DNA of 64,000 nucleotides from Bdellovibrio sp. ArHS (GTDB taxonomy: Bacteria > Bdellovibrionota > Bdellovibrionia > Bdellovibrionales > Bdellovibrionaceae). A program made the position numbers and the translations under genes. Position 1 is the stretch's first letter, and each line of letters opens with the position of its first letter. This document shows positions 21,207-40,672 of the stretch, one piece after another. The notes below the pieces were generated by a model. That model was not told the DNA's origin, ran no database searches, and saw only the letters and a program-made list of their open reading frames with translations. The DNA is taken from the NCBI RefSeq assembly GCF_000786105.1, contig NZ_JTEV01000006.1:80410-144409 (forward strand). The letters are read 5' to 3'.

Positions 21207-21232
21207 AGTGTGTTCTCAAAAAAAAACACACT
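21207..21232. promoter_or_regulatory. Operator-like palindrome 1 (lipoprotein/regulator divergent region)
   Basis: Perfect 8-bp arms AGTGTGTT and AACACACT ten bases apart; it contains TGTGT-N12-ACACA at 21209-21230. It is 79 bp from the lipoprotein start and 105 bp from the regulator start. Confidence 0.7.
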
Positions 21233-21324
21233 GATGCAATATGCCCCCGCCTCTTTAAATTGACTCCCTAGAGAATTTAGCATTTTTTGAAGCCCCACTT
21301 TGAATTCTCAACTATGGAGACTAG

Positions 21325-22101
21325 ATGGAAAATTGGTCAGAAATTTTCAAATACGACATCAAGCAGGTCTTACAAAGAGTCCTCCAAGAAAAACAGGAAA
21401 CGCACCCGTCCTTTTCGCAGAGAGATCTTGCCGCGCAACTGGGTATGGCGCCCTCCACGCTGAATGAAATCTTAAAAGGGAAAAGAGCTTTATCGAAAAA
21501 AACACTGGGCAAAATCAAAGATCTTTTCCATGAAGATACTCATTTTCAGGAAGTCCTCAGGTCTCATGATAAAGAAAAATTCAAACTCTTCTTTGCAGAA
21601 AATCGTCAACTGACTGAGATTTCTAATAAGTGGTATTTTGAAGCTCTCTTAGAACTGATTAGCACTGATGATTTCCGCGAGGACTCTGCGTGGATGGCCG
21701 CACGTCTTGGCATCTCGGAAAAAGAAGTTCAGGCCGCCATTGATAACCTTTTAGCTATCGGAGAAATTCGGTACAACAAATTTGGCCGACTGTCCGTTGC
21801 CTTCGATAATACCTTAAACATCAGCGAAGGTGATTTAAGAAAAGCGACCTTGAAAAAAGGACGAAGTCATATTTCCAAACTAGAATCCACCGTCGAGGAA
21901 CTTTCGTTCGAAGAAAGATTTTTCAGCTCGATGGTGATTGCGATGTGTCCGAGTGACTTCGAATATCTTCGAACAAAAATGGTGGATTTCATCAAAGAAC
22001 AGCAACAATTTTTAAGTCGAGATGGCACTAAAAAAACGGAAGTTTATCAGCTTACAATGGGAATGGTGCCACTAACCCGAAAGGTGGATGGCAGTGCATA
22101 G
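21325..22101 (+). CDS. TIGR02147/DUF4423-type DNA-binding regulator
   Basis: A 258-residue regulator. Residues about 28-65 form a lambda-repressor-type helix-turn-helix (SQRDLAAQLGMAPSTLNEILKGKRALSKKTLGKI). The rest matches the TIGR02147/DUF4423 family, known mainly from Fibrobacter and Bdellovibrio: KWYFEALLELIS, WMAARLGISEKEVQAAIDNLLAIGEI (a second winged-helix-like part) and a C-terminal domain ending TEVYQLTMGMVPLT. GGAGACTAG precedes the ATG. It shares an intergenic space and a palindrome with the QNC lipoprotein gene, so self-regulation and control of the neighbouring island are inferred. A related gene is at 41748. Confidence 0.85.
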   Translation: MENWSEIFKYDIKQVLQRVLQEKQETHPSFSQRDLAAQLGMAPSTLNEILKGKRALSKKTLGKIKDLFHEDTHFQEVLRSHDKEKFKLFFAENRQLTEISNKWYFEALLELISTDDFREDSAWMAARLGISEKEVQAAIDNLLAIGEIRYNKFGRLSVAFDNTLNISEGDLRKATLKKGRSHISKLESTVEELSFEERFFSSMVIAMCPSDFEYLRTKMVDFIKEQQQFLSRDGTKKTEVYQLTMGMVPLTRKVDGSA

Positions 22102-22124
22102 GCACTGCCAGATTCTTGGAATCT

Positions 22125-22556
22125 TTATTGACGTTCTAAATCCACGCAATTAATTTGCGCGTCTTTTTTCCAACCGAACATTTTTTTAACATGTCCTTCC
22201 AAGCGCACGGACTTTAGTTCCTCACCGATAAATTCAATGTCAGCGCGACCTCGTGTGGTTGCTCGATCATTCTTATGAGCACTGCACGACAACATAATCA
22301 ATTCACCCGCACTTCCCGCATAAGAGTGAACCTGTAATGCCTGGTCTGCGCAGTAAGCAAAGCTGCCTTTTGTGCGATCATGAGTCACTCCGATGATTTC
22401 CTGATCTCCATCTGCCGATATATAAAGCACCATGCCGTTGCGGCGATTTTCCACTTCGATCTGGCATCCCTCACTATTCGCATAGGTGATTGTTTCGGCA
22501 GACGCGAAGGAGGAAGCAAACACCGACAACGCTAACGTCAAAAATACTTTCTTCAT
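22125..22556 (-). CDS. Small secreted protein of unknown function
   Basis: Start chosen at the ATG at 22556 (AAGGAG six bases upstream); the frame runs open further but the added part has no signal character. 143 residues: signal peptide about 1-20 (ALSVFASSFASA), then a beta-rich domain with four cysteines (GCQIEV, AYCADQ, LSCSAH, NCVDL), likely two disulfides. No family recognised. It lies between the regulator (convergent) and the giant lipoprotein gene, with no operator-like palindrome of its own. Confidence 0.7.
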   Translation of the reverse strand: MKKVFLTLALSVFASSFASAETITYANSEGCQIEVENRRNGMVLYISADGDQEIIGVTHDRTKGSFAYCADQALQVHSYAGSAGELIMLSCSAHKNDRATTRGRADIEFIGEELKSVRLEGHVKKMFGWKKDAQINCVDLERQ

Positions 22557-22695
22557 AAGAACTCCTTGCCATAGAGGCAATATCTTCGTGACGCGTTGTA
22601 GCATTAAATGTGAGAAAAAATCAACCAAAAACAGGATCGAGGATTTCAAACTGTGTTTTTCATCCTAACCACATCAATACGGTTAGGAAATCGAA

Positions 22696-25410
22696 TCAGG
22701 GCAAACCGTATTTCGCCTTCAGCAAGCTCTCGATTTCTTGGCGTTCTTCCGAGGTTAGATCGCGATTAAAGACCATGATCTCGGCGATATCCCCGAAGAA
22801 GTCTTTACCTATATTCAACCCGTGAGCGATCGCTGCGTTGGCGGTATCCACGGCGGGTGAATTGGTGACGCTTAAAACGCCATTAATATATAGCGCCTGG
22901 CTCGTACCGTTGTATATCGAAGAAATCAAAAGGGGGCTGTCCGACGAGGCCGCCGCAGAGATCGACGACGAATTCTGATAGTTCATCGTTATAAAACTTT
23001 GATCCGTGGTTCGGAAGCAAAGACTGTAAAGTTTCGTATTTTGATAGCTCGTTCCATATCCGACAATGTGCTGGGTTTTAGCGATGGAAGAATTTCCATT
23101 GGCAATCACCGCAATGATCGAGCGCGGATTATTTTGCAGTGGCGGCATCACGGCAGACCCCATCCACTCGGTCCCAGTAAAACGAACGACCGGCTGACCA
23201 TTCAGAATGTTTGTTTTCAGTGTCGGTGCCTTACTTAAAATTTGTGAAAAGTCGAACCCTTCGCCGAGCATATTTTCCCAGCGGGTCACCTTACTATCAT
23301 TCGCCAAAGAATCTAAAAGGCTGTCGGCTTTAAACCAGGCCATCGGCAGCGCGTGTGGTACGACCGAGATACTTTGAGTCGCGACACCGCCCAATGAGTC
23401 TGTCACTTGAATCGTCGCGGTTCCGGCAGAAGAAGACGCAGTGTAAACTCCCGTCCCGGCGTTGACACTGCCGCCGCCAGAGACAAGGCTGTACTGATAC
23501 GGAGGGCTGCCTCCGGCCGCTTTAAAGGAATATTGGCCTGAGGTGTTCACGACTTTACCACGATTCACACCCGGAACTGCACTCAGTTTCAAAGGACCAG
23601 AATGGCAAGTGGCCGATGCGTCTAAAGTGATCTTGTATTTGTTCGCCAGATAACATTCCAGCTGCTTTTGCTGAGTCAGGTTCAGAACATCAGAAAACGC
23701 CAAGACTTCCGCGATGTCCCCTTTAAAATACCCATCGGCAGCACGCAGACGACCGATTTGTATTTTTGTGGACGCCGCCGTAGTCAACGTCACGCCTTTT
23801 TCTTCCAAAAGCTTTCCATTCAGATAGAGACGGTCCGTCGTTCCATCATATTGCTGCACCAAAATCATCGCTTCACTAGAACCGAAAATCGAAGATGACA
23901 TCGAACCGTTACTATTGAGACTTGGATATGTGTAACTCGCGTCGCTGCTGGAATGATAGTAACTTCCCATGCCGGCGCCTCGGTTGGTATGCTCTGCCTT
24001 GTTGGCAAAAGCTAGACCGTAATAGTTTAAAAAACTTGAAGTATTGCCATAGCCGGCAATCACTTGCCGATCACCAAGAGAAATATCGCCATTCGCAATC
24101 ACGGTCACGGTCGTCCGAGCTGCGGCGCCACTTACTGGAGACGTCGCTGTTTCCAAGAATTGTGTTGAGCCATTAAAACGCACGACAGATCGGCCGTTTA
24201 AAACTCCGGTTTTAAATACAGGACGTGTGGCGACAGTCCCATTGGTCGCATGATTCCCCGTCCCTGAAAAGTCACTCCAGGTTTGAACGGCCGTTTCATC
24301 CGTCAACGACAAGGTTCCCGCATTCAACCACAATTTTAAAGTCCCCCACTGGGTCGGCGAAAAAACGGTGAGCGTGGATTCTTGGGTGCTTCCCCCAACA
24401 TCGGTCACTCGAATTTGTACTTCCCCGGAATAAGTTCCTGCGACAAACACGCCGGTTGCAGGGTCCATCGTGCCTGCGGCGGGATCCCCTATCAATGAAA
24501 ACACATAAGGTGGACTGGCGCCGGTGGCCGTGAATGTCGTCTGCTCCCCTGGCGCGAGGGTGATTTGAGCCGGGAACAAAAGCAGAGGTTCAGGAAAGTC
24601 ATTGTCTGTGATGACGACAGTATGAACAAGTTCTCCTTCCAAACTTGCCAAAGAAGAACCGACATTCTGCAAAGTGATCACAAGACTTTCAGTCCCCTCA
24701 ATGTCCACGTCATCATGGATAGTAAAAGGAAGATCCACATAAGTGGAGCCGGCCGGGATTTGCACCGAGCCCGAACTAAGATCATGATCGGTCAAAGAAG
24801 TGCTCGTACCACCCACCGAAAAGGAAATGGCTAAGGCATCAGCTAGCACACCTGACATAGAAATACGGACGGACCCCGTGCTGTAGCCCTCGCTGACGCT
24901 TTGAGAGGCGACACTAAAAGAAACTTTAGGCTTTACTTCATCTTCCAAAAGATCAAAGGGAAAAGATTTTCCGCTGCCACTTCCTTCAAAAGTTAATTGC
25001 GGTAGCGAGGATGACAGCTTAATAGAGAAAATGTGATCCCCTTTAAAGACTAAATCGTTGATCGGCTTCAAATTGAAGGTCCCTGAACTGCCATTTTTGG
25101 CGATGGTAAAGCTGCCCGACGTCTTTTGAAAAAAATCGACGGCGCTTGGTTCTTGAATTTCCCAGGATACAAGGGTCTCCACCGGTACCGGATGATTTAG
25201 TATAAGGACTATCGTGCTATCAGTATTTTCATTGATTTGGAATGGCGGAAGAGTCGCCGTGATTTTTTCGTCTTCCGGAGCTGGTTCCACAGACGGAGTA
25301 GAAGGCGCCTTCTCAACCGCCGAGATTCCCATTTCTGAAGAAATCACACAGCCAGAAAGCCCCCACAGAGCAAACGATACCAGTGCTGTACAGAATAGTG
25401 TTCGAAGCAC
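22696..25410 (-). CDS. Giant lipoprotein with Calx-beta, Ig-like and two LamG/ConA-like domains
   Basis: A 904-residue lipoprotein (lipobox LSGC, Cys about 21), probably on the outer membrane. From N to C: Calx-beta-like domains at about 50-155 and 160-275, an Ig-like unit (about 285-350, ending VTDVGGSTQESTLTV), a LamG/concanavalin-like domain (about 355-590; LKLWLNAGTLS, TWSDFSGTGNHA, VVRFNGSTQFLE), a second Ig-like unit (GGSPPYQYSLVSGGGSV), and a second LamG-like domain to the end (AWFKADSLLDS…). LamG-type folds bind glycans or proteins, so adhesion or ligand binding is likely. The start is a GTG with GGGAGA upstream. The Ig-like units resemble those of the protein at 44645. Confidence 0.82.
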   Translation of the reverse strand: MLRTLFCTALVSFALWGLSGCVISSEMGISAVEKAPSTPSVEPAPEDEKITATLPPFQINENTDSTIVLILNHPVPVETLVSWEIQEPSAVDFFQKTSGSFTIAKNGSSGTFNLKPINDLVFKGDHIFSIKLSSSLPQLTFEGSGSGKSFPFDLLEDEVKPKVSFSVASQSVSEGYSTGSVRISMSGVLADALAISFSVGGTSTSLTDHDLSSGSVQIPAGSTYVDLPFTIHDDVDIEGTESLVITLQNVGSSLASLEGELVHTVVITDNDFPEPLLLFPAQITLAPGEQTTFTATGASPPYVFSLIGDPAAGTMDPATGVFVAGTYSGEVQIRVTDVGGSTQESTLTVFSPTQWGTLKLWLNAGTLSLTDETAVQTWSDFSGTGNHATNGTVATRPVFKTGVLNGRSVVRFNGSTQFLETATSPVSGAAARTTVTVIANGDISLGDRQVIAGYGNTSSFLNYYGLAFANKAEHTNRGAGMGSYYHSSSDASYTYPSLNSNGSMSSSIFGSSEAMILVQQYDGTTDRLYLNGKLLEEKGVTLTTAASTKIQIGRLRAADGYFKGDIAEVLAFSDVLNLTQQKQLECYLANKYKITLDASATCHSGPLKLSAVPGVNRGKVVNTSGQYSFKAAGGSPPYQYSLVSGGGSVNAGTGVYTASSSAGTATIQVTDSLGGVATQSISVVPHALPMAWFKADSLLDSLANDSKVTRWENMLGEGFDFSQILSKAPTLKTNILNGQPVVRFTGTEWMGSAVMPPLQNNPRSIIAVIANGNSSIAKTQHIVGYGTSYQNTKLYSLCFRTTDQSFITMNYQNSSSISAAASSDSPLLISSIYNGTSQALYINGVLSVTNSPAVDTANAAIAHGLNIGKDFFGDIAEIMVFNRDLTSEERQEIESLLKAKYGLP

Positions 25411-25509: not shown

Positions 25510-25531
25510 TGTGTTTTTTAAAAAAAACACA
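25510..25531. promoter_or_regulatory. Operator-like palindrome 2
   Basis: Perfect 10-bp arms TGTGTTTTTT / AAAAAACACA separated by two bases (22 bp in all). It lies between the divergent giant lipoprotein gene (start 25410) and the small secreted gene (start 25663). This is the most symmetrical copy. Confidence 0.75.
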
Positions 25532-25662: not shown

Positions 25663-26157
25663 ATGAATAATTATTTTTTTGTATCACTCTTGATGTGGAT
25701 TCCGTTGTTTTCCCCTGCCATGACGACCGAAACCGTTTGCACGCCACAGGGTCCGACCACGATTGAGGCGGGCCCATCCACAGGAAGTATTTCCCAAATA
25801 CATTCCCTGAAGATTTCATTCTCAGAGGCCTTGCCGTCCCCCCAAATTTTTATGAGCGTGGAAGGTCTTGATAGTCTGGGCAAAAAGGTCAGCGGTATCG
25901 AAGCCTATGAGTTGAAGGATATGAAGTCGGGAACTCTTTTAGAGCTTCAAGGAAGCCCCTCCAATATTTTTGAATTTGACGCGATCTTTTTGGAACTAGG
26001 AGCTCCCGAAGTAGAAACCGCAGGCCCCATTCCTACTGGAACTTTTGCCCTGAAAGCCTCGATGGCTTTTATAGACTCGAATGTCTTTTATTTAAATCCG
26101 TATCCGATGGCGCTCTCTCGAGTCAATTTCGACTGCCAGCAGACGGTCCGTTACTAA
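25663..26157 (+). CDS. Small secreted protein of unknown function
   Basis: 164 residues: signal peptide about 1-19 (LLMWIPLFSPAM), then a beta-rich domain with two cysteines (TVCTPQG near the start and NFDCQQTVRY at the end), probably one disulfide closing the domain. The ribosome site is weak (AAGGAAAT). It is divergent from the giant lipoprotein gene across palindrome 2 and overlaps the pilin-like gene by four bases in convergent orientation. No family recognised. Confidence 0.65.
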   Translation: MNNYFFVSLLMWIPLFSPAMTTETVCTPQGPTTIEAGPSTGSISQIHSLKISFSEALPSPQIFMSVEGLDSLGKKVSGIEAYELKDMKSGTLLELQGSPSNIFEFDAIFLELGAPEVETAGPIPTGTFALKASMAFIDSNVFYLNPYPMALSRVNFDCQQTVRY

Positions 26158-27029
26158 TTGCACTCACAGCCATTTTGACCGGCCTCAAGACAGAAATTCT
26201 TTTTCACGAAGTAACAGCTATAGGTCTTTTCTGCGCCCGCACTGGCTTCGCCTAGGCGGGTTCTTTTGAAGCCTTTGCGGCAACAAGGAACCGCCTCCCC
26301 GTGGCAATAAGCGGGGCTGCGCGCAGCCACATTCGTTTTAATGCTGACGTCTTCATCGGGGTACTGACACTTCTGCTGCGCTGGCATCCAGACAACCGTG
26401 CCACTTAAATCACCAGGAAAAAAACATCGCCGTTGGGAGTTCATGCCGCCCCAAAGATTGAGCATGCTTCCTCCCTGCATCACACAGGTGTAGTCAACGG
26501 AACTTTCTCCGCCGCAGCTTTTTACTTTATTCGTGCCAGGCTCTACTTCTAAAATAAGTGGAATCACGATGGGTTTGAAAGAGCTGGGCCCCAACATCGT
26601 CGCACTGGCAGTCACTTCGGCGTGAATCAAAAGCTTTGTTAAAATATAGTTTTCTAACATTGCCTGGCGACCTTCGAATGAAATTTTTTTGATCGTGTAT
26701 CCATCTTCACTAAAGCCCGTTTGCAGCCACGTTTTGAGACCGTCCGCCGGGTCCTTAATAATCACGCCAGTGACATTGGGAGCCGCGTCTGTCGGAACGA
26801 CTTGTCCCACCAAGGCCCGCGTACAATTTTCGGAAGAAGAAAACTGCAGATTGATAAGCGTATCTAAACGTATCAGCGAAGACTTTATGGAAAGGGCCTT
26901 TTGGCCTTTGAAACCGTCACCTAATGCCGTGGCAATTCCCAAAGCCAACATCGTCGTTAAACCCAAGGCAATTAGAACTTGTATGAGGCTGCTCCCGCGA
27001 CGCCCTCTATCTTTCGATCTCACATTCAT
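26154..27029 (-). CDS. Prepilin-like protein with Gln at position +5 and Cys-rich C-terminus
   Basis: A 291-residue type IV pilin-like protein. The leader MNVRSKDRGRRG ends in Gly12 and the mature protein starts SSLIQVLIALG, followed by a hydrophobic helix to about residue 34. Glu at +5, which is nearly invariant in major pilins, is Gln here. Non-Glu5 minor pseudopilins (such as GspK of type II secretion) sit at the filament tip, so a tip role is inferred. The last ~125 residues hold about 11 cysteines, including a CC pair. It is the second gene of an operon behind the QNC lipoprotein gene (57 bp apart). Confidence 0.82.
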   Translation of the reverse strand: MNVRSKDRGRRGSSLIQVLIALGLTTMLALGIATALGDGFKGQKALSIKSSLIRLDTLINLQFSSSENCTRALVGQVVPTDAAPNVTGVIIKDPADGLKTWLQTGFSEDGYTIKKISFEGRQAMLENYILTKLLIHAEVTASATMLGPSSFKPIVIPLILEVEPGTNKVKSCGGESSVDYTCVMQGGSMLNLWGGMNSQRRCFFPGDLSGTVVWMPAQQKCQYPDEDVSIKTNVAARSPAYCHGEAVPCCRKGFKRTRLGEASAGAEKTYSCYFVKKNFCLEAGQNGCECN

Positions 27030-27086: not shown

Positions 27087-28358
27087 TTATTGTACACACA
27101 CAGTTGAATATTTAATGGTTCCATCGGGAAGCATCGCATCCGACATAACCAACTTTTTAGAGCCGTTACGACATTGCGGAATATTTTTTGAATCGCAATA
27201 CCCGTAATTTTCGACATCGAAGTATCCCGCTTGCGCGACCAGTGGCTCTGACGCTGTTCTGCAGGTGTTCACTCCTGCCGCTGATCCTTCGCTGTAAATG
27301 CTCGCGACAATGCGAGTTCCAGCCGAAGAATTTTTCACGCAGGCTGTTTGATACTTGATACTGTTCCCGTTGTTAGATTGAGTTGCACTCAAAATAACCT
27401 TCTTGGCATCTCCAGCACACTGAGGAATACCTTTCAGGTCACAATAAGCCACACCCTCTTCATCAAAATATCCTTGCGCTAAGGCCAAGGGATCATTCGG
27501 ATAGATGCACGTGTTCTTTTCACTTGGATATTCCGTCTCGCTGTACATCGTAGACACGATTTGCGACTTAGTGCTTCCATTAACTACACACGCCGTGTGA
27601 TATTTCACAGTTCGGGTGTTTGGAATCTGCACTGCCGACATAATGACTTTGTGAGAACCCTTTGCACACATGGGGATTTGGTCTCTATCGCAGTAAGAAT
27701 ACCCTCCTAAATCAAAATATCCCGTGGCTTTCAATTCCGCATTTTGAGCTGTCGCACATACATTCACTCCGTCAGTTGAGGCACTATAGGCCGTTGAAAC
27801 GATTTGAAATCCCTGCTCTGCACTGTCTTTCACACAGACTGTGTGATAGACAATTTTTTTAGAAGGAGCACCGTTAGAAACAGTGTTCATTTCCGTCTGA
27901 GTCCACACGACTTTTTGGGAACCATTTCGACATTGAGGAATATTGTTCTGATCACAATAAGAATAGTTACCCAGATCCCAATAACCCACCTTCGCCGCAG
28001 CGGGATTGGCGGCTGTCGCACACTGATTTAGACCTGTCTTCAGGTCGTTCTCACTATAGATTGTCGCGACGATAGCGCTGTTGAGTAGTGTTGAAGGATT
28101 GGCAGGATTAGCAACGGGCTCATTGCCCTGATTTTGCGAAGGGGGCGAACCACTCCCACCCTGATTCATATCCCCACGATCGGATCCTTCCCCATAAAAT
28201 ATGGGAATGCCAGATGCCTGACCATTGGAAGACAGAGATGCTTCATTCATGGCTCCAAACTGTTGTGGAGCACAGTTTTGAAAAGCCAGTATAATCACGA
28301 CGCCGCTTCCTAATGCGGCAAAGCTCCACTGCACTTTTCTTTTTGAGATAAAGTTCAT
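27087..28358 (-). CDS. QNC-type lipoprotein with four tandem Cys4 repeats
   Basis: A 423-residue lipoprotein. The lipobox is ILAFQNC with Cys29 followed by A-P-Q-Q-F. A Gly/Ser/Asn/Pro-rich spacer (30-93) leads to four repeats of 73-84 residues at about 95-178, 186-258, 267-341 and 350-423. Each repeat has the pattern IV.[ST].YSE…C…GY[FW]D…YCD…IP.C..[GD]..KV…KY.T.CV, with four conserved Cys. The ribosome site is AGGGGGAAGT. It is the first gene of the operon with the pilin-like protein and diverges from the Ser/Thr kinase across palindrome 3. I do not recognise the repeat family. Confidence 0.82.
   Translation of the reverse strand: MNFISKRKVQWSFAALGSGVVIILAFQNCAPQQFGAMNEASLSSNGQASGIPIFYGEGSDRGDMNQGGSGSPPSQNQGNEPVANPANPSTLLNSAIVATIYSENDLKTGLNQCATAANPAAAKVGYWDLGNYSYCDQNNIPQCRNGSQKVVWTQTEMNTVSNGAPSKKIVYHTVCVKDSAEQGFQIVSTAYSASTDGVNVCATAQNAELKATGYFDLGGYSYCDRDQIPMCAKGSHKVIMSAVQIPNTRTVKYHTACVVNGSTKSQIVSTMYSETEYPSEKNTCIYPNDPLALAQGYFDEEGVAYCDLKGIPQCAGDAKKVILSATQSNNGNSIKYQTACVKNSSAGTRIVASIYSEGSAAGVNTCRTASEPLVAQAGYFDVENYGYCDSKNIPQCRNGSKKLVMSDAMLPDGTIKYSTVCVQ
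27090..28076 (-). repeat. Four tandem repeats of about 220-250 bp (protein level)
   Basis: These encode the four Cys4 units of the lipoprotein above. They match well as protein but are divergent as DNA, so the duplication is old and the cysteine pattern has been kept by selection. Confidence 0.75.
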
Positions 28359-28436: not shown

Positions 28437-28458
28437 TGTGTTTTTTTATAAGTACACA
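28437..28458. promoter_or_regulatory. Operator-like palindrome 3
   Basis: TGTGT-N12-ACACA, 22 bp, extended by AAC before and CTT after. It lies 90 bp before the QNC lipoprotein start (28358) and about 47 bp before the kinase start (28495). Confidence 0.65.
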
Positions 28459-28494: not shown

Positions 28495-29892
28495 ATGGAG
28501 CAAATCGGCCGTTTTCAAATTCTAAGATCGTTGGCTTCTGGTGGCATGGCGGATATTTTTCTTGCACGAAAAATTGGCGATCCTTCTTCACAACTCTTCG
28601 TCATTAAAAGAATTGGCGCACAAGCCGACGACAAATGGTTTTATTCAAAACTTTTTTTAAGAGAAGCGAAACTATCTATTTCCTTGAATCATCCAAACCT
28701 GGTGCAAACCCTGGAAATGGGCACTCATGAAGGAAATTTGTATCTTGTTCAAGAATATATCGAAGGCGTGAATCTTAAAGAAATTATGAGCGTTGTCACC
28801 CTGCTGGGACGCTTTTTTCCCACAAGTATGGTTTATTATATCATGGCGAAAGTCTCTCTGGGGCTTTCTTACATGCATGGGCATATTTCTTTGCAAAGCC
28901 ATCAGCAGATTTGTCTTCATCGCGATCTGAGTCCTCACAACATCATGCTCAGTCGCGGTGGTGAGGTCAAAATTATCGACTTCGGTGTGTCTAAGTCTTC
29001 AGATAGTGAGTCTTTGACACAAGCGGGAACCATCAAAGGTAAATACACCTACATGAGTCCCGAGCAATTGTGCGGGGAAAACGTCACGCCCGCCTCTGAT
29101 ATCTTTGCCCTGGGGATTATTTATTACGAGCTTTTGACAGGAAAACGTTTTTTCTCAACCTCGACTGAGTTAGAAACCATCCAAGCTCTTTCACAGTGGT
29201 CTCTTGAAGAGGTACAAAAACGAATTCTCGATGTGGGCACTGAAGATGCTCGGATCTTGCAATCGATGTTGGATCCCGATCCACAACGCCGAGTTTCTGC
29301 CTTGCAACTGGCGGCGGTTTTTGAAACGTCTCTGAAAAGTCTGGATGCGCATTATGGGGTCGATCAGTTTGCAGCAACGCTTCGCGAGTATATTGGTGAA
29401 AGCGCCTCTGGACTCAACCTCAGCAAAGGAAATCAGTCCACAGAAAGTCTGACAGCACAATCCGAGATCAGTGAAAAAAAGCCATCCATGCAACAGCACA
29501 TCACTCTTTACGAAGTCTTGACGGAAAAACCAAGGACTTCGTCATTGAATCGATCACTGTTGACTCTGTCTTTCGCAGTTCTTTTCGGAGGATATCTTTT
29601 CTGGAAAGTCGACGACGATACTTCAAAAAAACGAGTCCCCGCTTCGCTGGCGCCAGTAAAAAAAGAGCCCCGTTCTTTGCTTTTGAAATTTGACCAGTTT
29701 AAAAACAACAAGTCGCTGGAAGTGTCACTTAATGGCGCTCGCGTCTTAAAGAAGGATATTCTAGCGGGAATTAAGGTTTTTGATGGGGACCAGGTTGCGA
29801 TCCGATTTTACTCTTTAAACGACCGAAGATGGAAAAGCTCAGTAGCGACGATTAACACGTCAAGTTCCCCGATCTTTTCAGAAGCTGAGTAG
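28495..29892 (+). CDS. Hanks-type Ser/Thr protein kinase, membrane-anchored
   Basis: Start at the ATG at 28495 (AAAGGAACCAAA before it); the frame runs open upstream through the palindrome. 465 residues: kinase domain at about 5-275 with LASGGMADIFLA, Lys38, catalytic Asp144 in HRDLSPHNIM, Asp162 of DFG, GTIKGKYTYMSPEQ and DIFALGIIYYELLTG. A linker leads to one membrane helix (about 350-368) and an extracytoplasmic tail of about 95 residues. The layout (cytoplasmic kinase, single helix, outside domain) suits sensing across the inner membrane. It diverges from the lipoprotein-pilin operon and shares the palindrome with it, so it may be part of the same system. Substrates unknown. Confidence 0.92.
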   Translation: MEQIGRFQILRSLASGGMADIFLARKIGDPSSQLFVIKRIGAQADDKWFYSKLFLREAKLSISLNHPNLVQTLEMGTHEGNLYLVQEYIEGVNLKEIMSVVTLLGRFFPTSMVYYIMAKVSLGLSYMHGHISLQSHQQICLHRDLSPHNIMLSRGGEVKIIDFGVSKSSDSESLTQAGTIKGKYTYMSPEQLCGENVTPASDIFALGIIYYELLTGKRFFSTSTELETIQALSQWSLEEVQKRILDVGTEDARILQSMLDPDPQRRVSALQLAAVFETSLKSLDAHYGVDQFAATLREYIGESASGLNLSKGNQSTESLTAQSEISEKKPSMQQHITLYEVLTEKPRTSSLNRSLLTLSFAVLFGGYLFWKVDDDTSKKRVPASLAPVKKEPRSLLLKFDQFKNNKSLEVSLNGARVLKKDILAGIKVFDGDQVAIRFYSLNDRRWKSSVATINTSSSPIFSEAE

Positions 29893-33800: not shown

Positions 33801-34459
33801 AAAAGAACAGACTTGTTCACACAGTTGGAAGTATTGCCAGCTCGATCTCGAATTAACACCGAAAGATTTTTATTTCCATCAGTAACATCCGAAAGCGCGA
33901 ATGAACTAAGACTCTGAAAAGACTTCCACGGACCGGTCCCACCACAGCCTGCGCCCTCAGAAAAAAGAACCTCATGAATATCGGTCGCGCTGGAAATGAT
34001 TTGGACCGTCGGTTCTGTGATATTAATTTTCGCTTTGCCGCCGGCAACAACAACATTGTCAATGACCGGAGCTTGTGTGTCCTTGGTCACTGGAATAACC
34101 ACGCGATCACCCGTTTTTGGGTGTTCAAGGTCGGTAATCACCTCAATGGTTCCGTCAGGTGTCATTGGGTCAATGGAGACTTCAACCTGCCACTTTCCAT
34201 CTTTACACTGCACGGTTTTTTTGGGCGGAGGATTCAAAATTTCAAAGGATTCCAGTCCCTCTTTGCAGGAACCATCGACCGTGACCGTATTTGGATTTTG
34301 AATATTGATGACGGGCTCTGAAGTCCAGCTAATCGGCAACTTATTAAGACTCTCAGAACTTACAAGAGTCGCATCCAATGAACATCCTACCAACGGCAAT
34401 GCGGCCACCGTTTTTAATAAGATACCCATCGATTTTAATAAATTGAATACCCCGCGCAA
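30845..34459 (-). CDS. Giant lipoprotein with Ig-like domains and RCC1-like repeats
   Basis: A 1204-residue lipoprotein, lipobox LPLVGC (Cys about 26). The TTG at 34459 has AGGGAG upstream and is preferred to the ATG at 34429, which has none. Residues about 40-700 hold Ig-like modules of the bacterial adhesin type (segments such as TVDFGEPIQELLASDFSVENG and KFSKKVTGFVSADVHVANG). Residues about 790-1190 hold eight RCC1-like repeats of about 45-58 residues with the core FAALKSDGSVVTWG and GGDH…GAKGGSLTSGV, plus a degenerate last unit. RCC1-like repeats form propellers that bind proteins. It diverges from the QNC lipoprotein at 34746 across palindrome 5. Surface adhesin is the likely role. Confidence 0.82.
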   Translation of the reverse strand: MRGVFNLLKSMGILLKTVAALPLVGCSLDATLVSSESLNKLPISWTSEPVINIQNPNTVTVDGSCKEGLESFEILNPPPKKTVQCKDGKWQVEVSIDPMTPDGTIEVITDLEHPKTGDRVVIPVTKDTQAPVIDNVVVAGGKAKINITEPTVQIISSATDIHEVLFSEGAGCGGTGPWKSFQSLSSFALSDVTDGNKNLSVLIRDRAGNTSNCVNKSVLLDRTAPAPTITSLVSAKTNASPIAVTVDFGEPIQELLASDFSVENGVVGGLVDLGAGKYNVSITPVLKGSVSIKVDAGKVLDEAGNFNVSGNQLFREYDSEKPSVTITTDAGDKTNGMFDVTIKFSKKVTGFVSADVHVANGTRLFLSGSDDEYRFTINPISSGIPVKVYYAEDQAQDEFSNYNTASNWLTVDYLAGSVSATLETEVTGTHVAGAFPVSLKMSRTTDIVKEDLEVTNATIEMWTPSLDKKEITFNVVPSAVGNVQLQLSSGKAQDDYGNFNSDSNILSVVFDNVPPGDPQNMSVTPTSPAKGNPVVSGNAEALANFKVYSNAICTAELTSGVVDSSGDFSKGTIVPANTTTHLYVQIVDAAGNKSNCVYAGAFTEDSTPPKLSIFSKSSGEQDDDLNSRLVIEGGCSEEGRTITFVGSYVQPVAPVQCQGGRWEAQFIYSGYLPLKVQLQDAAGNAAEVTWTYDSRSIAKMGDGIWGHAFLRPDGYVDIWEDPGSGSSFAYLDPALKNPSTQVIRVYGAKKCGAAITETNAIIRWQADGSQGQDDSVYRCEVAPSGGALSASKIFNNATSFAALQLGGSVLTWGLIDTGGDHLHATFGVKGGTVTSGVKAIYSGEEAFAAIKTDGSVVTWGAPTRGGNHTHATYGAKGGSLSSGVVKIFSNKLGGFAALKSDGSVVTWGDLWSGGDHTNATHGTKGGALTGGVKQIVATYAAFAALKSDGSVVTWGTASYGGDHTDVVHGYGANGGTLDSGVIKIFANKAGAFAALKADGSVVTWGINSLGGNHTHPTFFGAKGGVLTSGVVHIYENSELDGSDNVGNGAFAALKSDGSVVTWGSDSAGGDHLKSGYANKGGTLTSGVVKLFPNGDGAFAALKEDGSVVTWGKPATGGDHTSVTYGARGGSLTSGVIDIATSKRGFAALKSDGSVVTWGQVEDYTQGNSPGLASGVQKIYSTDSGFVAVKGASQYHFWGWSGPGY
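30900..32085 (-). repeat. Tandem RCC1-like repeats (about 150 bp each)
   Basis: Eight full copies and one degenerate copy of a ~150-bp unit encode the RCC1-like part of the lipoprotein. Adjacent copies share stretches such as AAAGCCGCAAAGGCGCC and GTGACAACGGAGCC variants on the plus strand, so slippage or recombination that changes the copy number is possible. Confidence 0.75.
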
Positions 34460-34570: not shown

Positions 34571-34591
34571 TGTGTTTTTCGCGAAAACACA
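34571..34591. promoter_or_regulatory. Operator-like palindrome 5
   Basis: Perfect 8-bp arms TGTGTTTT / AAAACACA with five bases between (21 bp, one base shorter than most copies), flanked by C and G. It lies between the divergent giant lipoprotein (34459) and QNC lipoprotein (34746) genes. Confidence 0.72.
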
Positions 34592-34745
34592 GATTTATTC
34601 ACATATTTAGAAAATCTTGAGTTCGATGCCAGCGACAATCTCTATGTTTTTTCTTTAAGACACATTATCGCTGAAAGACCATCTTCAGACTCATGAGGTG
34701 CTCTCCGAAAAGCCAGACTCGGACCTGATCCGAGGGGGGAAAAGT

Positions 34746-35369
34746 ATGAAAGAAGGATTTAAATGGGCTCTTACTGCAGTCTCAGTATCTGTTTTAATTT
34801 TGTTTTATCAAAACTGTAGCAATCCAGGATTTGAAACCCTCAGCCAGTCTTCACTGTCTATGAGCGGTGACTCCTTGATCGCACGCTCCTCAAAAAATGA
34901 TGAAGCGCTCGCGTCTGCAAACTCTGCTGCTTCTGCCGCGAAGTTGAATTGTCCTTCTTTGGCCTACAATATTGCTGTCTGCCAAAAGGTTCAGCAAGAG
35001 GTCGGAGATACGTGCCGCATTGTCAGCAACTCGGGTGTGATTCTTCACGTCCTTCAGGGAAGCACAACCATGACTGATATCACAATTAACTGTACAGCTG
35101 TGAATTCTCCTACAACGACAGTGGAAGTCACACCCGCCCCGGGACAGTCTGGCGTCGGATCCACGGTGATTTCAGATCCCGGCTCAACGGGTAAACCAAA
35201 AAAACTTGTGTGCCCTTCACTGACTTTGATGATGGAAAAGTGTGCCATCGTCGTGAGAGACGTCGGTGATACTTGCCGAATCTCCAGTACGGAAGGAGCT
35301 CTACTGTATACACTTCAAGGCCACAACGGGCAAACCACGGATATCTGGACACCTTGCCATCTAGAGTAA
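34746..35369 (+). CDS. QNC-type lipoprotein with two Cys4 repeats
   Basis: 207 residues from the ATG at 34746 (GAGGGGGGAAAAGT upstream). The lipobox is LFYQNC (Cys about 24), followed by S-N-P-G-F. A spacer leads to two repeats of about 50 residues, at about 78-130 and 155-206, each with four Cys: C.SL…C..V…VGDTCRI.S..G..L..LQG…TDI…C. The unit resembles the single Cys module of the lipoprotein at 20127. A terminator-like hairpin follows. Family not recognised; surface or periplasmic binding role only guessed. Confidence 0.78.
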   Translation: MKEGFKWALTAVSVSVLILFYQNCSNPGFETLSQSSLSMSGDSLIARSSKNDEALASANSAASAAKLNCPSLAYNIAVCQKVQQEVGDTCRIVSNSGVILHVLQGSTTMTDITINCTAVNSPTTTVEVTPAPGQSGVGSTVISDPGSTGKPKKLVCPSLTLMMEKCAIVVRDVGDTCRISSTEGALLYTLQGHNGQTTDIWTPCHLE

Positions 35370-35456: not shown

Positions 35457-37385
35457 ATGCGTCGTCTCAATTTAGGGTCCCACATCGTCCCCGCTCTCGT
35501 TGCGGGCTCCTTTATTTTTCTTCTTACTAGTTGTTTGAATGGCAAATCGGACAAGAAGTCGCAGAAGACTGAAGAGGCCTTCAGATATTCTAAAGTCGAA
35601 ATGTCTTCCTATTCGGTTAGCCCTTCGAGTGTTGAGATATTGCAAGACCCCAGACTGACTTTGGGAGTCGCGCATGGTTTTGCAAACACCCTCTCAGAAT
35701 TTCGCAATTCTGAATGTTCAAGAGCCTGGGATATTAAATTGCCTTCGTTGATGCAAGCCCCTTGGTTGTTCTGGGAGATTGCCGAAAAAACTTATTTCTG
35801 CGACAACGCTTCGTCTCCGCAGATTCGAGGTCGCGAAATTTCCTATGCCTCTGCGGATCTCTCTAAACGCTTTATCATTCCGAATGACTCGAGCGAGGGG
35901 GCCTTCCGGATGATTTACGACACTTCGAAAGAATGGCGCAAGGGTTGCAACCTATCAAAACCCGATGGAAATCTGCTGCCGCGCTACCCGCATCCTGCCA
36001 CCCAATGGCCTCACTTTTTAATCGGCCAACTTTTTGAAGACCCCCGTCAGCCTCAAAAAAATCTTTGGCTGAATGCCGGGAAAAAATACACTCTTCGCGC
36101 TTCCGTCCGTTTAAATGAAAGCCAAAGAATGATGGTTGAAAACTGCCCACAAGGCAGTTGGCCAACACCTGGAAATGGCGACGAAACCCATCAGATTTTT
36201 TACATCGCTCTTATTCTAAAACATAAAAACCATCCTCGTCACATTGGGACTAAGATCAATGTCAACCAGATCTATGCCCTCGCACCTGTGTTTTACTCTC
36301 CCGATGGCACCAACCACTTAGACGTAGGTTCCTGGGTCGATTCGGATCAATTTGGCAACGCCGTTCATTTTGCCCCAGGCTATCCTCAGCTTCGACGAGG
36401 TTCCTGGGTCGACGTGCAAATAGATGCGGATGCAATGACCCAAAGCGCCTTGAATGCCATTCAAGAAAAATATGGCGAGACTTTAAGACCCGATGATTAT
36501 CACGTCCTCGGAGTTTTAATTGGATGGGAGATCTGGGGCGGCTTTAAAAATGATATCGAAGTTAAAAATCTGTCGTTTCAAGCCACCGACAGCCCCCCGC
36601 CTCCTCCTCCGTCTTCGGATCCTTCATATGGAACAATCTTAGGACATATCGACGGTCTGAGCTCTTCTGGTTCGAACTATACGGTGAATGGTTGGGCTTG
36701 CGGCAAATCCGCTGCGACTTCGATCCCGGTTCATCTCTATTTAGGCGGCCAGGCCGGCACCGCGCAATCTATTTATGCCGGAGCTTATCAAGCTAATCTC
36801 TCCAGCGAATCTGCGATCTCGTCTTTATGTGGAACTCAAGGCATCCCTCATCGTTTCGCAATTCCGGTGAGCAAAGCCCTCGCTGAACAACATGCGACGA
36901 AACCGCTTTTTGTCCATGGCATATCGCCCTCGGGTCGACCGAATGCGATGATTGGGAACTCGGGGAATGTATTATTGCCCCCGCGCGCAGAAATTCCTCC
37001 ACCGCACGCGCCGACGCCTGATGAAGACAGCGGAATCATTCGAGGCTTTATCGATGGCATTGAACACTCCGGCACCCAACGTGCTCTAGTAGGTTGGGCC
37101 TGCGGAACGAAAATTTCAACACCGATTCAAATTCATCTTTATGTGGGATCTTCGGCGGGTACTCCCGGAGCAACTCTGATCGGTGGTTACACCGCCAATC
37201 AACCTAGCGAACCTGCGGTGGCCCAAGCTTGCGCTTCCGCTGGTAACGCTCATCGTTTTAAAATTCCTTTGAGCGCAGAATTATCACAGCGACATGCTGG
37301 CAAACGAATTTACATACATGGCATTTCTCCGACGGGAAAAAGCAACGACTTGCTAGGAACCTCGAAAGAGCTTTTCGTTCCCTAA
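35457..37385 (+). CDS. Lipoprotein with two C-terminal GWAC repeat domains
   Basis: 642 residues, lipobox FLLTSC (Cys about 22). A ~290-residue central part (about 90-375) is beta-rich with a jelly-roll look (LNAGKKYTLRASVRL, SWVDVQIDAD), then a Pro linker (PPPPPPSSDPS). Two homologous domains of about 115 residues follow (about 395-515 and 525-640), each with G.IDG…GWACG…HLY.G…C…HRF.IP…H…HGISP.G..N. Each has two Cys. I cannot name this domain family. GGGAG precedes the ATG. Possibly glycan binding; not proven. Confidence 0.72.
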   Translation: MRRLNLGSHIVPALVAGSFIFLLTSCLNGKSDKKSQKTEEAFRYSKVEMSSYSVSPSSVEILQDPRLTLGVAHGFANTLSEFRNSECSRAWDIKLPSLMQAPWLFWEIAEKTYFCDNASSPQIRGREISYASADLSKRFIIPNDSSEGAFRMIYDTSKEWRKGCNLSKPDGNLLPRYPHPATQWPHFLIGQLFEDPRQPQKNLWLNAGKKYTLRASVRLNESQRMMVENCPQGSWPTPGNGDETHQIFYIALILKHKNHPRHIGTKINVNQIYALAPVFYSPDGTNHLDVGSWVDSDQFGNAVHFAPGYPQLRRGSWVDVQIDADAMTQSALNAIQEKYGETLRPDDYHVLGVLIGWEIWGGFKNDIEVKNLSFQATDSPPPPPPSSDPSYGTILGHIDGLSSSGSNYTVNGWACGKSAATSIPVHLYLGGQAGTAQSIYAGAYQANLSSESAISSLCGTQGIPHRFAIPVSKALAEQHATKPLFVHGISPSGRPNAMIGNSGNVLLPPRAEIPPPHAPTPDEDSGIIRGFIDGIEHSGTQRALVGWACGTKISTPIQIHLYVGSSAGTPGATLIGGYTANQPSEPAVAQACASAGNAHRFKIPLSAELSQRHAGKRIYIHGISPTGKSNDLLGTSKELFVP

Positions 37386-37710: not shown

Positions 37711-38847
37711 TTACGAACACTGACACGTAAATACGGTCCCACGATCATTCGTGGCTTTGGCTCCCTTATTCGCCGTACTACAAGAGGCCGTGGGTGAGGA
37801 CTCTGGACCAGCTACAATTCCTGACCAAGAACATCGCGTTCCTGTCGATCCTCCGTAATTTTTTGACCCGATCGCACAATCACCATAGCCAGGGCGTTTG
37901 ACCACGATATTCGCGGACTGAAACACTTTACCTGTCGCCGGATCACGCACAACGGTGCGATAAGTTCCCGGGACGATCACGGGGTTTCCGCTCAAGTTAA
38001 AAACGGCTGTCGGATGTGTGAATGTTCGTGTCGCTGAATTGTAAGACCACTCAGGAAACAGATATCTAAACTTAGACGCGGAATCACACTTGAAGCTCTC
38101 TCCATAGCGAGGGTGTCCAGGTGGCATATCCAACGTATACTCAGAACAAACCTGAACATCCATAGGCGCGTTTTGGACCGTTTGGTTGATGATCGCCGCT
38201 CCGGCCAAAGAGCAGTCCACACGAGCGGCTTCGGTTGAAGCTCCATTCACAACAATACCAGATTGACAATGCCCGAATCCGGTTCGTTTCACCAGAATTT
38301 CTCCTGAACGAAAAATTTCTCCAGTATGATCGCGAACCACAAGCCAATAGCTGCCGGGAACAATGGTATCATCATCGTTCACCTTATAAGGTGTTCGTGT
38401 GGACCACTGCCTTAATGAGGCGTCATAACTCCACTGATCCAAATTTGGTGCCGCAAACTTTTCAGGTCGATCACAAAAACTTTGTTCATTATATCGAGGA
38501 TGCCCTGCCGGCATATCCAAGATATATTCCGCACACACTGAGATCGACGAAGGAGCATTTTTAATCACCTGATGGATTTCGGAGCCCGCTTTAGAGCAGT
38601 CCTCTTTAGCTACGGCCGTCGAAGACGCTACCACTTGAATTTTATTTGTTAAGCTAGGTTCAGAATAATACCCTCCGGAGGAGTATCCTGGCACCGAAAC
38701 TCCCCCTCCACGAGCAAAATTCGACGATGATGCGGATAAGGCAGCGCCTTCCGTATCAAAACCTTGCGAAGAACAGTTTTGAAAAGCCACGACTATTCCT
38801 GAGACCGCGACGACAGCCACGGTGCCCTTTACAAGACGACTCGACAT
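37711..38847 (-). CDS. QNC-type lipoprotein with two Cys4 repeats of another type
   Basis: 378 residues; lipobox VVAFQNC (Cys about 25) then S-S-Q-G-F. After a Ser/Gly spacer come two repeats of about 125 residues (about 78-200 and 208-330): DCS.AG…NAP…VC.EY.LDMP.GHPRY…CD…WSY…IVPG.Y..VVRD..G..F.S..I.VKR.G.G.C, four Cys each. A short tail has four more Cys. Ribosome site AGGGGGATGTA. It lies directly downstream of the pilin-like gene at 38970, and palindrome 6 lies in the 122-bp gap between them. Function unknown. Confidence 0.8.
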   Translation of the reverse strand: MSSRLVKGTVAVVAVSGIVVAFQNCSSQGFDTEGAALSASSSNFARGGGVSVPGYSSGGYYSEPSLTNKIQVVASSTAVAKEDCSKAGSEIHQVIKNAPSSISVCAEYILDMPAGHPRYNEQSFCDRPEKFAAPNLDQWSYDASLRQWSTRTPYKVNDDDTIVPGSYWLVVRDHTGEIFRSGEILVKRTGFGHCQSGIVVNGASTEAARVDCSLAGAAIINQTVQNAPMDVQVCSEYTLDMPPGHPRYGESFKCDSASKFRYLFPEWSYNSATRTFTHPTAVFNLSGNPVIVPGTYRTVVRDPATGKVFQSANIVVKRPGYGDCAIGSKNYGGSTGTRCSWSGIVAGPESSPTASCSTANKGAKATNDRGTVFTCQCS

Positions 38848-38917: not shown

Positions 38918-38940
38918 CGTGTATTTCGGAACAAAACACA
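38918..38940. promoter_or_regulatory. Operator-like palindrome 6 (imperfect)
   Basis: GTGT-N13-ACAC with T-rich and A-rich inner arms; spacing is one base longer than in most copies. It lies about 80 bp upstream of the QNC lipoprotein start, which suggests that this gene has its own promoter. Confidence 0.5.
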
Positions 38941-38969: not shown

Positions 38970-39938
38970 TCAATAGCGAACATACCATCGCGTCGGAACA
39001 GCAATACCTGGGCAGCCATTGGTGTTGGGCTGATTGACAGGACTACAATATATACTTCCATCTGTTCCAAATCGTGCCGAAGCAGCGCCAATAAACGGAT
39101 TCATTTCACCGGCAAATCGAACCGGGCTTAGACAGTAAATAGTTTTGGTAATACCTGATCGATACGCCTGCTGACACAATTCATTTCTATCCGAGGCCGT
39201 CACTCCAGGTCCGGTCACTTTTACGTCAGCACCTTCGCCAATAGCCTTTTCAAATTCTTCAAACTTTCCAAAAACAGTTCCGCCGGATTCCGAATTTTCA
39301 TAGATCAGATGCCAGCGTCCGTCTTGAAAACAAGCGGCCTTTGATGGCCATCCTTTCGCGGCAAAATCCACACAGGTCGGCGAGTAGACACCCTGAGCTG
39401 TGCCTTGGGTCGGTTCACTTAAACGGCTGCAACTGACAATCTTTCCTGATTCATCCGTCGCCAAATGCAAAGGGACTGTGCGATTCATATTAATGCTCAG
39501 ACCCGACTTTCCTTTTACACCAAGATCAATGGAACCTAAATAGCGATTGGCCCCGAGCGCGCTATCAACTTTGAAAGCAATACTTTCTACGCTCAGAATA
39601 TTCTGATAAGGTTTGCCAACTTTGATGATCTCTTTAGACCCCAGAGCCCCACTGGCACTGACATCTTTGAAAACGACGTTGTTTTCGATGACCGCCGGCA
39701 GTGAGCCCGGCACCTGTTTCCCGGCAAAGTGTAAATTGCAGTAAGTCGGATCGCCAAGCATTCCGGAAATCTGAACAGCCAAATCCTCAGCGGCATAAAA
39801 GCTTCGCGAATGTGACATGCTGTCAATTCCGCTGGAGACGGCCGTCGCGATGCCGGCGACCAACATAGATGAAATACCGACAGCCAGCATAGTTTGCACT
39901 AGTGTGAAGCCTTTGTTATTTATCTTCGCCATCGCCAT
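38970..39938 (-). CDS. Prepilin-like protein with Gln at position +5
   Basis: Start at the ATG at 39938 (AAGGAG six bases upstream). 322 residues. The leader ends at Gly10 and the mature part starts FTLVQTMLAVG, with a hydrophobic helix to about residue 35. As in the protein at 26154, Glu5 is replaced by Gln. The globular part is large for a pilin and has about eight Cys, mostly in the last 120 residues. Large non-Glu5 pseudopilins are tip proteins in type II secretion and type IV pili, so a tip role is inferred. It precedes the QNC lipoprotein gene on the same strand. Confidence 0.82.
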   Translation of the reverse strand: MAMAKINNKGFTLVQTMLAVGISSMLVAGIATAVSSGIDSMSHSRSFYAAEDLAVQISGMLGDPTYCNLHFAGKQVPGSLPAVIENNVVFKDVSASGALGSKEIIKVGKPYQNILSVESIAFKVDSALGANRYLGSIDLGVKGKSGLSINMNRTVPLHLATDESGKIVSCSRLSEPTQGTAQGVYSPTCVDFAAKGWPSKAACFQDGRWHLIYENSESGGTVFGKFEEFEKAIGEGADVKVTGPGVTASDRNELCQQAYRSGITKTIYCLSPVRFAGEMNPFIGAASARFGTDGSIYCSPVNQPNTNGCPGIAVPTRWYVRY

Positions 39939-40015
39939 CTTTATCTCCTTGAGCAACATCTAAAGAATCTACTCGGCACAAAAATGAGGCCTCTAGATTG
40001 CCTATTCTTCATTTT

Positions 40016-40038
40016 CGTGTTTTCAAAAGATACACACT
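40016..40038. promoter_or_regulatory. Operator-like palindrome 7 (imperfect)
   Basis: CGTGTTTT…ACACACT; GTGT and ACAC are 11 or 13 bases apart depending on which ACAC is used. It lies about 88 bp upstream of the pilin-like gene start at 39938. Confidence 0.5.
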
Positions 40039-40175
40039 CAAAGAAGTCGGAGCTGACTCAAAACAGAACAATCAGCTGCAAAGGTTCGAAAAAGTTATGT
40101 GCTAATAAACGGACGAGGGGCCACTAAACAAGGCAGGGGAAAACATGCCGCAGTTCCCCCCTTTAATTGAACTAG

Positions 40176-40556
40176 CTACTTTTGCACATTATAGTAAGGA
40201 ATTTCAATAATAGATCTAAAGCCATTTTTTGTTGTCATTGAAAGAACAATCTTCCTTAAAGACTCGATCATCTTTCCTTGCTTGCCCAATAAATGCCCCA
40301 AACTTTTTTGCGAACAGTTCACCTTAAAGATGGTTGTCTTTTCCCCATGTACTATTTCAACACCAAAGCCGGAAGTGTCGGGCAATATTCTTGTGAGAAT
40401 ATCTTCTAGAATCGTCTTAACTTCTTTAGAGTATTCTGTTCTGCATATGCGATTTGTTGAGGCCGTTTCATTGAAATCTTCCATCTGAGTCTCTTTCGAA
40501 CTCCAAGAACTCGCGTCCTTCTTTTTTACTATTCGGATTACCGGTATGGCAGACAT
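40176..40556 (-). CDS. KH-domain RNA-binding protein (KhpA-like core with N-terminal extension)
   Basis: 126 residues. The C-terminal ~80 residues have the single KH-domain pattern of KhpA-type proteins, with the RNA-binding GxxG loop in LGHLLGKQGKMIESLRKIV and a following beta strand. The N-terminal ~45 residues are polar and not conserved-looking. KhpA-type proteins bind RNA broadly and are normally housekeeping genes beside rpsP; here the gene stands alone in the accessory island with palindrome 8 upstream. A strong GGGGAGGGG ribosome site precedes the ATG. Post-transcriptional control of the island is possible but only inferred. Confidence 0.78.
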   Translation of the reverse strand: MSAIPVIRIVKKKDASSWSSKETQMEDFNETASTNRICRTEYSKEVKTILEDILTRILPDTSGFGVEIVHGEKTTIFKVNCSQKSLGHLLGKQGKMIESLRKIVLSMTTKNGFRSIIEIPYYNVQK

Positions 40557-40650
40557 TGCCCCTCCCCTTCATTGACAACTTACACACAAGTAATGTTATC
40601 GGGAGATTTGAGGGTCTCGATAGATTTTTGGCGTCACCTAGATCTTGTTT

Positions 40651-40672
40651 CGTGTTTAAAGTAAAAAACACA
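40651..40672. promoter_or_regulatory. Operator-like palindrome 8
   Basis: CGTGTTT…AAACACA, GTGT-N12-ACAC type, 22 bp; outer GTTT/AAAC extends the symmetry with one offset. It lies about 105 bp upstream of the KH-domain gene. Confidence 0.6.

Follow-up and report, generated by a model that had tools for sequence, protein, structure and literature searches.

A palindromic dyad confined to a secreted-protein island of Bdellovibrio sp. ArHS is the predicted operator of the island's own TIGR02147-type regulator

A 64,000-nucleotide stretch of the Bdellovibrio sp. ArHS genome (contig NZ_JTEV01000006.1, positions 80,410 to 144,409; hereafter, the window) carries, at 20.1–40.7 kb, an island of lipoprotein, pseudopilin-like and other secreted-protein genes in which a palindromic dyad, defined here as YGTGT-N11-13-ACACR, recurs between genes. 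Judged from the sequence, the dyad is a real operator that is private to this island, with protein binding predicted. Its binder is very probably the island's own TIGR02147/DUF4423 regulator, encoded at 21325-22101. We consider it likely overall that the dyad is the operator of this regulator, probably for activation at promoters of the FliA (sigma28) type; activation at such promoters, although the leading proposal, is the weaker part, and we regard it as about an even call. An initial annotation of the window had proposed a single operator common to these sites and, with it, a regulon not described before. That proposal remains the best reading and is here refined to a regulon confined to the island.

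The fixed definition matched nine sites at 20-41 kb of the window, as compared to a mean of 0.15 in shuffled sequences (maximum of 2 in 300 shuffles). All nine are located in intergenic DNA, as had been noted for the eight copies first described. In the 2,495 intergenic bases concerned, dinucleotide shuffles gave a mean of 0.01 sites and a maximum of 1 (n = 300). A 22-mer allowing one mismatch yielded eight matches where 1.15 were expected, and none of 100 shuffles reached eight; one of the eight, at 24161, was dropped because it lies inside the 904-aa lipoprotein gene. All eight of the original copies are real. The half-site is YGTGT, with the next bases mostly T. Spacers are N12 at 21209, 25510, 28437, 30806, and 40651, N11 at 34571 and 40016, and N13 at 38918, in agreement with the earlier count of five regular copies and three that are one base off. 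Six copies lie where they had been placed; the first was corrected to 21209-21230, and the end of the 40016 copy was moved from 40038 to 40036 (N11, 21 bp). The list was also incomplete: a further site that fits the definition occupies 30412-30432, and one-mismatch copies occur at 22652 and 34643. Outside the island, the only fixed-definition match in the window is at 11310, inside the open reading frame (ORF) 10204-12063.

The sites are promoter-proximal. With gene starts picked by visual inspection of ribosome-binding sites, the distance from site edge to start codon was 36-155 bp (median 94) for the 15 site-gene pairs of the window, and 11 of these distances were 68-99 bp. The shortest gap is that of site 28437, which ends 36 bp before the start codon at 28495. 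By our own reading of the gene map, and counting the two weaker copies, a site is present at 14 of the 14 primary promoters of 20.1-40.7 kb, with four sites serving divergent gene pairs. The units that adjoin this interval, including the second TIGR02147 gene (41712-42560) and 40782-41585, have no site of the fixed definition. Both TIGR02147-type regulators had been put forward as candidate binders and as genes adjacent to copies of the dyad. Only 21325-22101 carries a copy in its promoter, and it is part of a clade whose remaining members lie in islands with analogous repeated dyads; 41712-42560 is preceded by none.

The dyad was then sought in the whole genome (3.54 Mb in 47 contigs, 95.9% complete) and in a comparison set of 59 genomes, this one included, of which G007 and G018 are two of the same genus. 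The strict form, TGTGTN12ACACA, occurs four times in the genome, each time in the island. Similarly, the three copies of the exact form TGTGTTN10AACACA are all in the island; four of the 58 other genomes have one copy each. Matches to the fixed definition numbered one in the TIGR02147 loci of the same genome (221 kb), one in the surroundings of TIGR02147 genes from other genomes (799 kb), and two in control loci (399 kb). The looser pattern GTGTN{11,15}ACACA was at chance genome-wide (32/37 vs 27/36 for the reversed pattern), an outcome named beforehand as refuting, yet 15 of the 69 matches listed fall within a 19.5-kb island that represents 0.55% of the genome. A genome-wide regulon was rejected on these counts. 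The regulon is thus confined to the island, as expected for a private operator. The one outside TGTGT-type match that was inspected, C19:10251, is inside coding sequence, as are two matches in this genome to the GTTCT-type dyad described below.

The 21325-22101 protein is a member of the TIGR02147 (Fsuc_second)/DUF4423 (PF14394) family, scoring 71.8 bits (cut-off 50) and 84 bits (cut-off 30), respectively, against the curated models. Residues 31-64, near its N-terminus, match the XRE-type helix-turn-helix (HTH) model HTH_3 at 35.6 bits (cut-off 23); a CRP-type HTH model matched weakly, below its cut-off. The family was found in 56 of the 59 genomes, with up to 30 matches per genome. The nearest homologues in these genomes are five genes of G007 and G018 (33-42% identity), which together with the 21325-22101 protein are monophyletic (support 1.0). 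Comparison with solved structures gave nothing beyond weak HTH-type matches. A contig profile search using the six-protein alignment returned 67 remote HTH matches, mostly from Bacteroidota, that were not used further.

In the loci of the five homologues, TGTGT dyads are absent, and another dyad, GTTCT-R-N7-Y-AGAAC, recurs exactly or nearly so ahead of genes for QNC lipoproteins, pseudopilins, kinases, fibres, KH proteins, and TIGR02147 regulators. For several sites outside the window, the strand and gene were assigned by eye. The GTTCT dyad was counted 15 times in 106 kb of these loci, corresponding to 13 distinct places because the loci overlap. It was absent from the three comparison sets, namely, other TIGR02147 loci (779 kb), control loci (399 kb), and TIGR02147 loci of the genome under study (221 kb). 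Of nine copies in the whole genome of G007, none lies outside two such islands, and four of the six in G018 are in its island; in each of the remaining 57 genomes, the count is 0-3. Regulator and operator-like dyad co-occur. In addition, GTTCT-N18-AGAAC, with a spacer twice the usual, occurs approximately 73-78 bp upstream of 21325-22101-like regulators at L031:12951 and L033:10573. In one G007 island, a shorter TIGR02147-like gene of 160 aa (L035:3109-3591) adjoins two full-length ones.

A third dyad, GAGCGC-N9-GCGCTC, has five copies in a single 5.6-kb stretch of G007 (locus L129), where they precede genes for a TIGR02147 regulator, a KH protein, a Peptidase_S74 fibre, and secreted proteins. 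All five lie outside the main genes, the copy at 11225 being inside a 79-aa ORF taken as spurious. Another two copies in G007 are at loci L198 and L199, where the search made found no TIGR02147 gene, and copies are scattered in other genomes (five in G029; nine in G058, with seven for the reversed control). G005, a second species, has a sole copy, which precedes the gene orthologous to the L129 regulator (67.5% identity) by 80 bp; the corresponding distance in G007 is 81 bp. In G018, the orthologue (69.6%) has an imperfect GAGCGC-N9-GCGTAC 68 bp upstream, and its locus has three matches of that quality in 20 kb.

Exact dyads were counted over 85 loci, with the best random control locus scoring -6.3. 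The top scores were those of L129 of G007 (-11.4), L035 (-9.1), and the window island (-8.6); L032 scored -6.7, which was equalled by CAAAG in the first 20 kb of the window. An upstream dyad with a diverged spacer was common to 17 of 76 TIGR02147 orthologue pairs vs 27 of 684 other pairs, and seven of those 27 concern a promoter common with a TIGR02147 gene. The 17 pairs fall in three groups, characterized by GTGTCA-N5-TGACAC, by CGGGAC-N5-GTCCCG with GTCCCG-N11-CGGGAC, and by GAGCGC-N9-GCGCTC. As these dyads are kept between orthologous promoters, members of the family appear to autoregulate via group-specific dyads, with some islands spreading the same dyad over neighboring promoters. Perfect 6-bp dyads of total length 21 were present at 15 of 56 TIGR02147 promoters vs 9% of 300 controls, and those of total length 25 at 18 of 56 vs 11%. 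A single universal operator length was rejected, as lengths differ between groups. Also rejected was a multi-copy dyad beside every TIGR02147 gene, which was not found: a dyad recurred at least twice nearby at 3 of 41 deduplicated promoters, namely, that of the window and two that share one G018 promoter. The deduplication left out the L129 regulator and kept its G018 orthologue, which has no such recurrence.

Two sets of half-sites were observed at other TIGR02147 genes. CGGGAC/GTCCCG recurs in a promoter common to the TIGR02147 gene and a divergent neighbor, conserved across species (L112, L114, L119, L133, and L137, at about 9.2-10.9 kb in each). TGACAC/GTGTCA recurs upstream of the TIGR02147 gene in L105 (10840-10930) and L107; this gene is 61-65% related to the G007 gene at the chromosomal position of the window.

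Promoter elements were evaluated using 39 site-gene pairs, the 15 of the window and 24 from G007 and G018; GTTCT dyads with N7 or N8 spacing (except that at L035 1997) and most one-mismatch GTTCT dyads were outside this count. An element resembling GCCGATAA (at least 6 of 8 positions) was present 48-52 or 58-62 bp from the dyad center in 16 pairs: 8 of 15 in the window and 8 of 24 in G007 and G018. The distance windows were picked after inspection, so the nulls were maximized over offsets. Shuffles gave a mean of 4.2 and a maximum of 9, and random anchor shifts gave a mean of 7.6 and a maximum of 13 (500 trials each). The most position-specific 4-mer was CCGA at +51 (6 pairs). TATAAT-like -10 elements had no preferred distance except for a small number located 43 and 53 bp beyond the edge of the dyad, and these were taken as CCGATAA elements. 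The accessible part of a study of B. bacteriovorus gives the attack-phase FliA promoter as TTAAG-N16-CCGATA, found in 92 of 140 mapped promoters (PMC3627812). The island resembles these promoters in the CCGATA-like -10 at preferred dyad distances. It differs in its mostly degenerate -35 and in the dyad at about -66/-76, unmentioned in that part of the study; these positions assume the usual distance from -10 to start.

These data suggest a mechanism in which the dyad, with half-site YGTGTT(T), would be bound by the 21325-22101 protein, presumably as a dimer. One dyad, sometimes two, would be occupied upstream of each primary transcription unit, including that of the regulator's own gene. Acting at about -66 or -76, positions that differ by one helical turn, the regulator would probably activate target promoters that have a sigma28 (FliA)-type -10 and a degraded -35. 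Two distances separated by a helical turn and upstream of the -35 fit a class I activator. The lipoproteins, pseudopilins, kinase, and KH protein would then need both the attack-phase sigma factor and the private regulator for their expression.

Several results weigh against this mechanism or its extension to the family. The window dyad varies in length (21, 22, and 23 bp), which is odd for a rigid dimer, and the AlphaFold model of the 21325-22101 protein, based on a two-sequence alignment, is poor (mean pLDDT 52.6), with better local confidence at residues 21-50 and 111-140. Regarding the promoters, 23 of the 39 pairs have no -10-like element at the preferred distances, and only one of six pairs has it in the third-dyad island. 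When the scan was reversed, to look for dyads 50/60 bp away from CCGATAA elements, no peak emerged relative to other TIGR02147 loci or controls. A TTAAG -35 (at least 4 of 5 positions, N15-17) accompanied 4 of the 16 elements (null mean 1.0; 1.2% of 1000 trials reached 4), the -35 being mostly degenerate. In the 85-locus count, the score of L178 (-8.5) reflects a repeat inside a coding region, and two of the homologues' loci, G007 L033 (-5.8) and G018 L031 (whose top dyad is not GTTCT), are within the control range. Most TIGR02147 loci have no multi-copy dyad, either in that count or among the 41 deduplicated promoters. The 17 orthologue pairs are not independent, as they come from three orthologue groups and include one G007 gene twice (L123 and L190). 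Finally, the G018 orthologue of the L129 regulator lacks a perfect GAGCGC dyad.

It is possible, but rather unlikely, that the 21325-22101 regulator binds the dyad to repress, via overlapping sites or looping between sites. Repression is common among XRE-type regulators and would agree with the dyad in the regulator's own promoter and with the short gap at site 28437. However, the 68-99 bp that separate most sites from their start codons, together with -10-like elements that lie, where present, 48-62 bp downstream of the dyad center, place the dyad upstream of the -35. That the binder is the second TIGR02147 regulator, or a heteromer of both, seems improbable. This gene adjoins the island, and its nearer relatives adjoin 21325-22101-like regulators in the G018 island and in one G007 island. 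Nevertheless, its own promoter is without a site, a different dyad, ATAGTT-N10-AACTAT, lies near its start, and the G007 island L034-L035 has GTTCT dyads with only 21325-22101-like regulators among the listed ORFs.

As the assignment of 21325-22101 is itself a prediction, the dyad could belong to a regulator encoded elsewhere or to a genome-wide factor. The chance-level counts of the looser pattern and the coding location of the inspected outside match make this quite improbable. Least plausible, and very unlikely, is that the dyads serve as transcription terminators, mark sites of recombination or cassette boundaries, or represent a small mobile repeat. Such readings would suit intergenic inverted repeats in a variable region, but the stems are A+T-rich, the placement is promoter-proximal, and four sites separate divergent genes, an arrangement that requires no terminator. 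Reading of the sequence, with no terminator scan run, did not reveal the G+C-rich stem, T-run, and gene-end location of an intrinsic terminator. Conserved flanks were not apparent in the site sequences displayed, and recombinase families were absent among the island proteins scanned. Operator function for the 21325-22101 regulator remains the favored reading.

CRP/FNR operators have the sequence TGTGA-N6-TCACA. The island dyad shares their outer TGTG..CACA bases and the geometry of class I activation. It differs in its TGTGT half-site and its spacer of 11-13 rather than 6, and the regulator's HTH scores best as XRE-type HTH_3. Indeed, all nine sites read YGTGT with N11-13, and none conforms to TGTGA-N6-TCACA. 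Among known surface loci, the MAT fibre loci of Bdellovibrio (PMC10769870) are related to the sister islands with analogous dyads by the Peptidase_S74 fibre genes that the latter hold; the proteins of the window island that were scanned have no Peptidase_S74 domain. The words promoter and operon are absent from the main text of that paper, as far as accessible. A literature search under TIGR02147 and DUF4423 found no operator or target for this regulator family. DUF4423 does appear in the accessible part of a proteome study, in which Bd3700 is among the proteins raised during growth in prey. Nothing relevant was present among the listed matches for Bdellovibrio palindromes and regulons.

The dyad is thus a predicted operator for a widespread family for which the literature searched holds none. 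It also links some TIGR02147 members to blocks of secreted and surface genes; their link to the attack-phase sigma factor is weaker. More tentatively, and with somewhat less than even confidence in the joint claim, the surface and prey-contact islands of this predatory-type group may be plug-in modules, each with its own TIGR02147 activator and a private operator at each promoter. The operators would have diverged so that islands avoid cross-talk, and the activators would gate attack-phase sigma28 promoters to choose which island (lipoproteins, pseudopilins, fibres) is displayed. If true, this would explain how predators add many prey-contact gene sets and keep them apart.

The genes flanking the island, 19282-20130 and 47634-49523, are conserved and lie 1.0-8.6 kb apart in ten same-genus genomes examined, which identifies the intervening 27 kb of the window (20131-47633) as a variable region. 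In relatives, the same gap contains a fibre-like and a TIGR02147-like gene (G001 and G018; labels from N-termini), a TIGR02147 gene (G007), or a KH gene (G005). Based on these contents, the region looks like a hot spot for modules of fibre-like, TIGR02147, or KH genes.

Table 1. Dyad sites, -10-like elements, regulators, and predicted target genes of the island (window coordinates). Lipobox, pilin-likeness, and secretion labels were read from N-termini.
Feature	Position	Strand	Context or evidence
Dyad site 1, TGTGTTCTCAAAAAAAAACACA	21209..21230		between divergent 20127-21140(-) and 21325(+)
Weaker site, 1 mismatch	22652..22673		upstream of 22125-22556(-)
Dyad site 2, TGTGTTTTTTAAAAAAAACACA	25510..25531		between 22696-25410(-) and 25663(+)
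Dyad site 3	28437..28458		between 27087-28358(-) and kinase start 28495(+)
Additional site, TGTGT-N11-ACACG	30412..30432		upstream of 29939-30316(-)
Dyad site 4	30806..30827		upstream of small secreted protein gene 30454-30729(-)
Dyad site 5 (N11)	34571..34591		between 30845-34459(-) and 34747(+)
Weaker second site, 1 mismatch	34643..34664		upstream of 34747(+)
Dyad site 6 (N13)	38918..38940		upstream of QNC lipoprotein gene 37711-38847(-)
Dyad site 7 (N11)	40016..40036		upstream of pseudopilin-like gene 38970-39941(-)
Dyad site 8	40651..40672		upstream of KH-domain gene 40176-40556(-)
Sigma28-like -10, GCCGATAA	38872..38879	-	50.5 bp from dyad center
Sigma28-like -10, CCCGATAA	40596..40603	-	59 bp from dyad center
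Sigma28-like -10, CCCGATAA	34515..34522	-	59.5 bp from dyad center
Weaker -10-like element, GCCGAAAT	21163..21170	-	50 bp from dyad center
Weaker -10-like element, GCCGAGTA	39970..39977	-	49.5 bp from dyad center
TIGR02147/DUF4423 regulator, 258 aa, proposed dyad binder	21325..22101	+	profile scores above cut-offs
Second TIGR02147 regulator, rival binder	41712..42560	+	no site upstream
QNC-lipobox lipoprotein gene	20127..21140	-	predicted target
Small secreted protein gene	22125..22556	-	predicted target (weaker site)
904-aa lipoprotein gene	22696..25410	-	predicted target; Laminin_G_3 domain
Secreted protein gene	25663..26157	+	predicted target
Pseudopilin-like gene	26154..27029	-	57 bp behind 27087-28358, probably same operon
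QNC-lipobox lipoprotein gene	27087..28358	-	predicted target
Ser/Thr protein kinase gene	28495..29892	+	predicted target; Pkinase 1.4e-42
Small secreted protein gene	29939..30316	-	predicted target
Small secreted protein gene	30454..30729	-	predicted target
1204-aa lipoprotein gene	30845..34459	-	predicted target; Ig-like and RCC1 repeats
QNC-lipobox lipoprotein gene	34747..35369	+	predicted target, two sites
642-aa lipoprotein gene	35457..37385	+	probably one operon with 34747-35369
QNC-lipobox lipoprotein gene	37711..38847	-	predicted target
Pseudopilin-like gene	38970..39941	-	predicted target; prepilin-type match weak, below cut-off
KhpA/KhpB-type KH protein gene	40176..40556	-	predicted target; KH_KhpA-B 1.4e-12

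At the second TIGR02147 gene, the dyad ATAGTT-N10-AACTAT (41708-41729) overlaps the predicted start. It may be the operator of this gene itself, in which case the true start may be further downstream.

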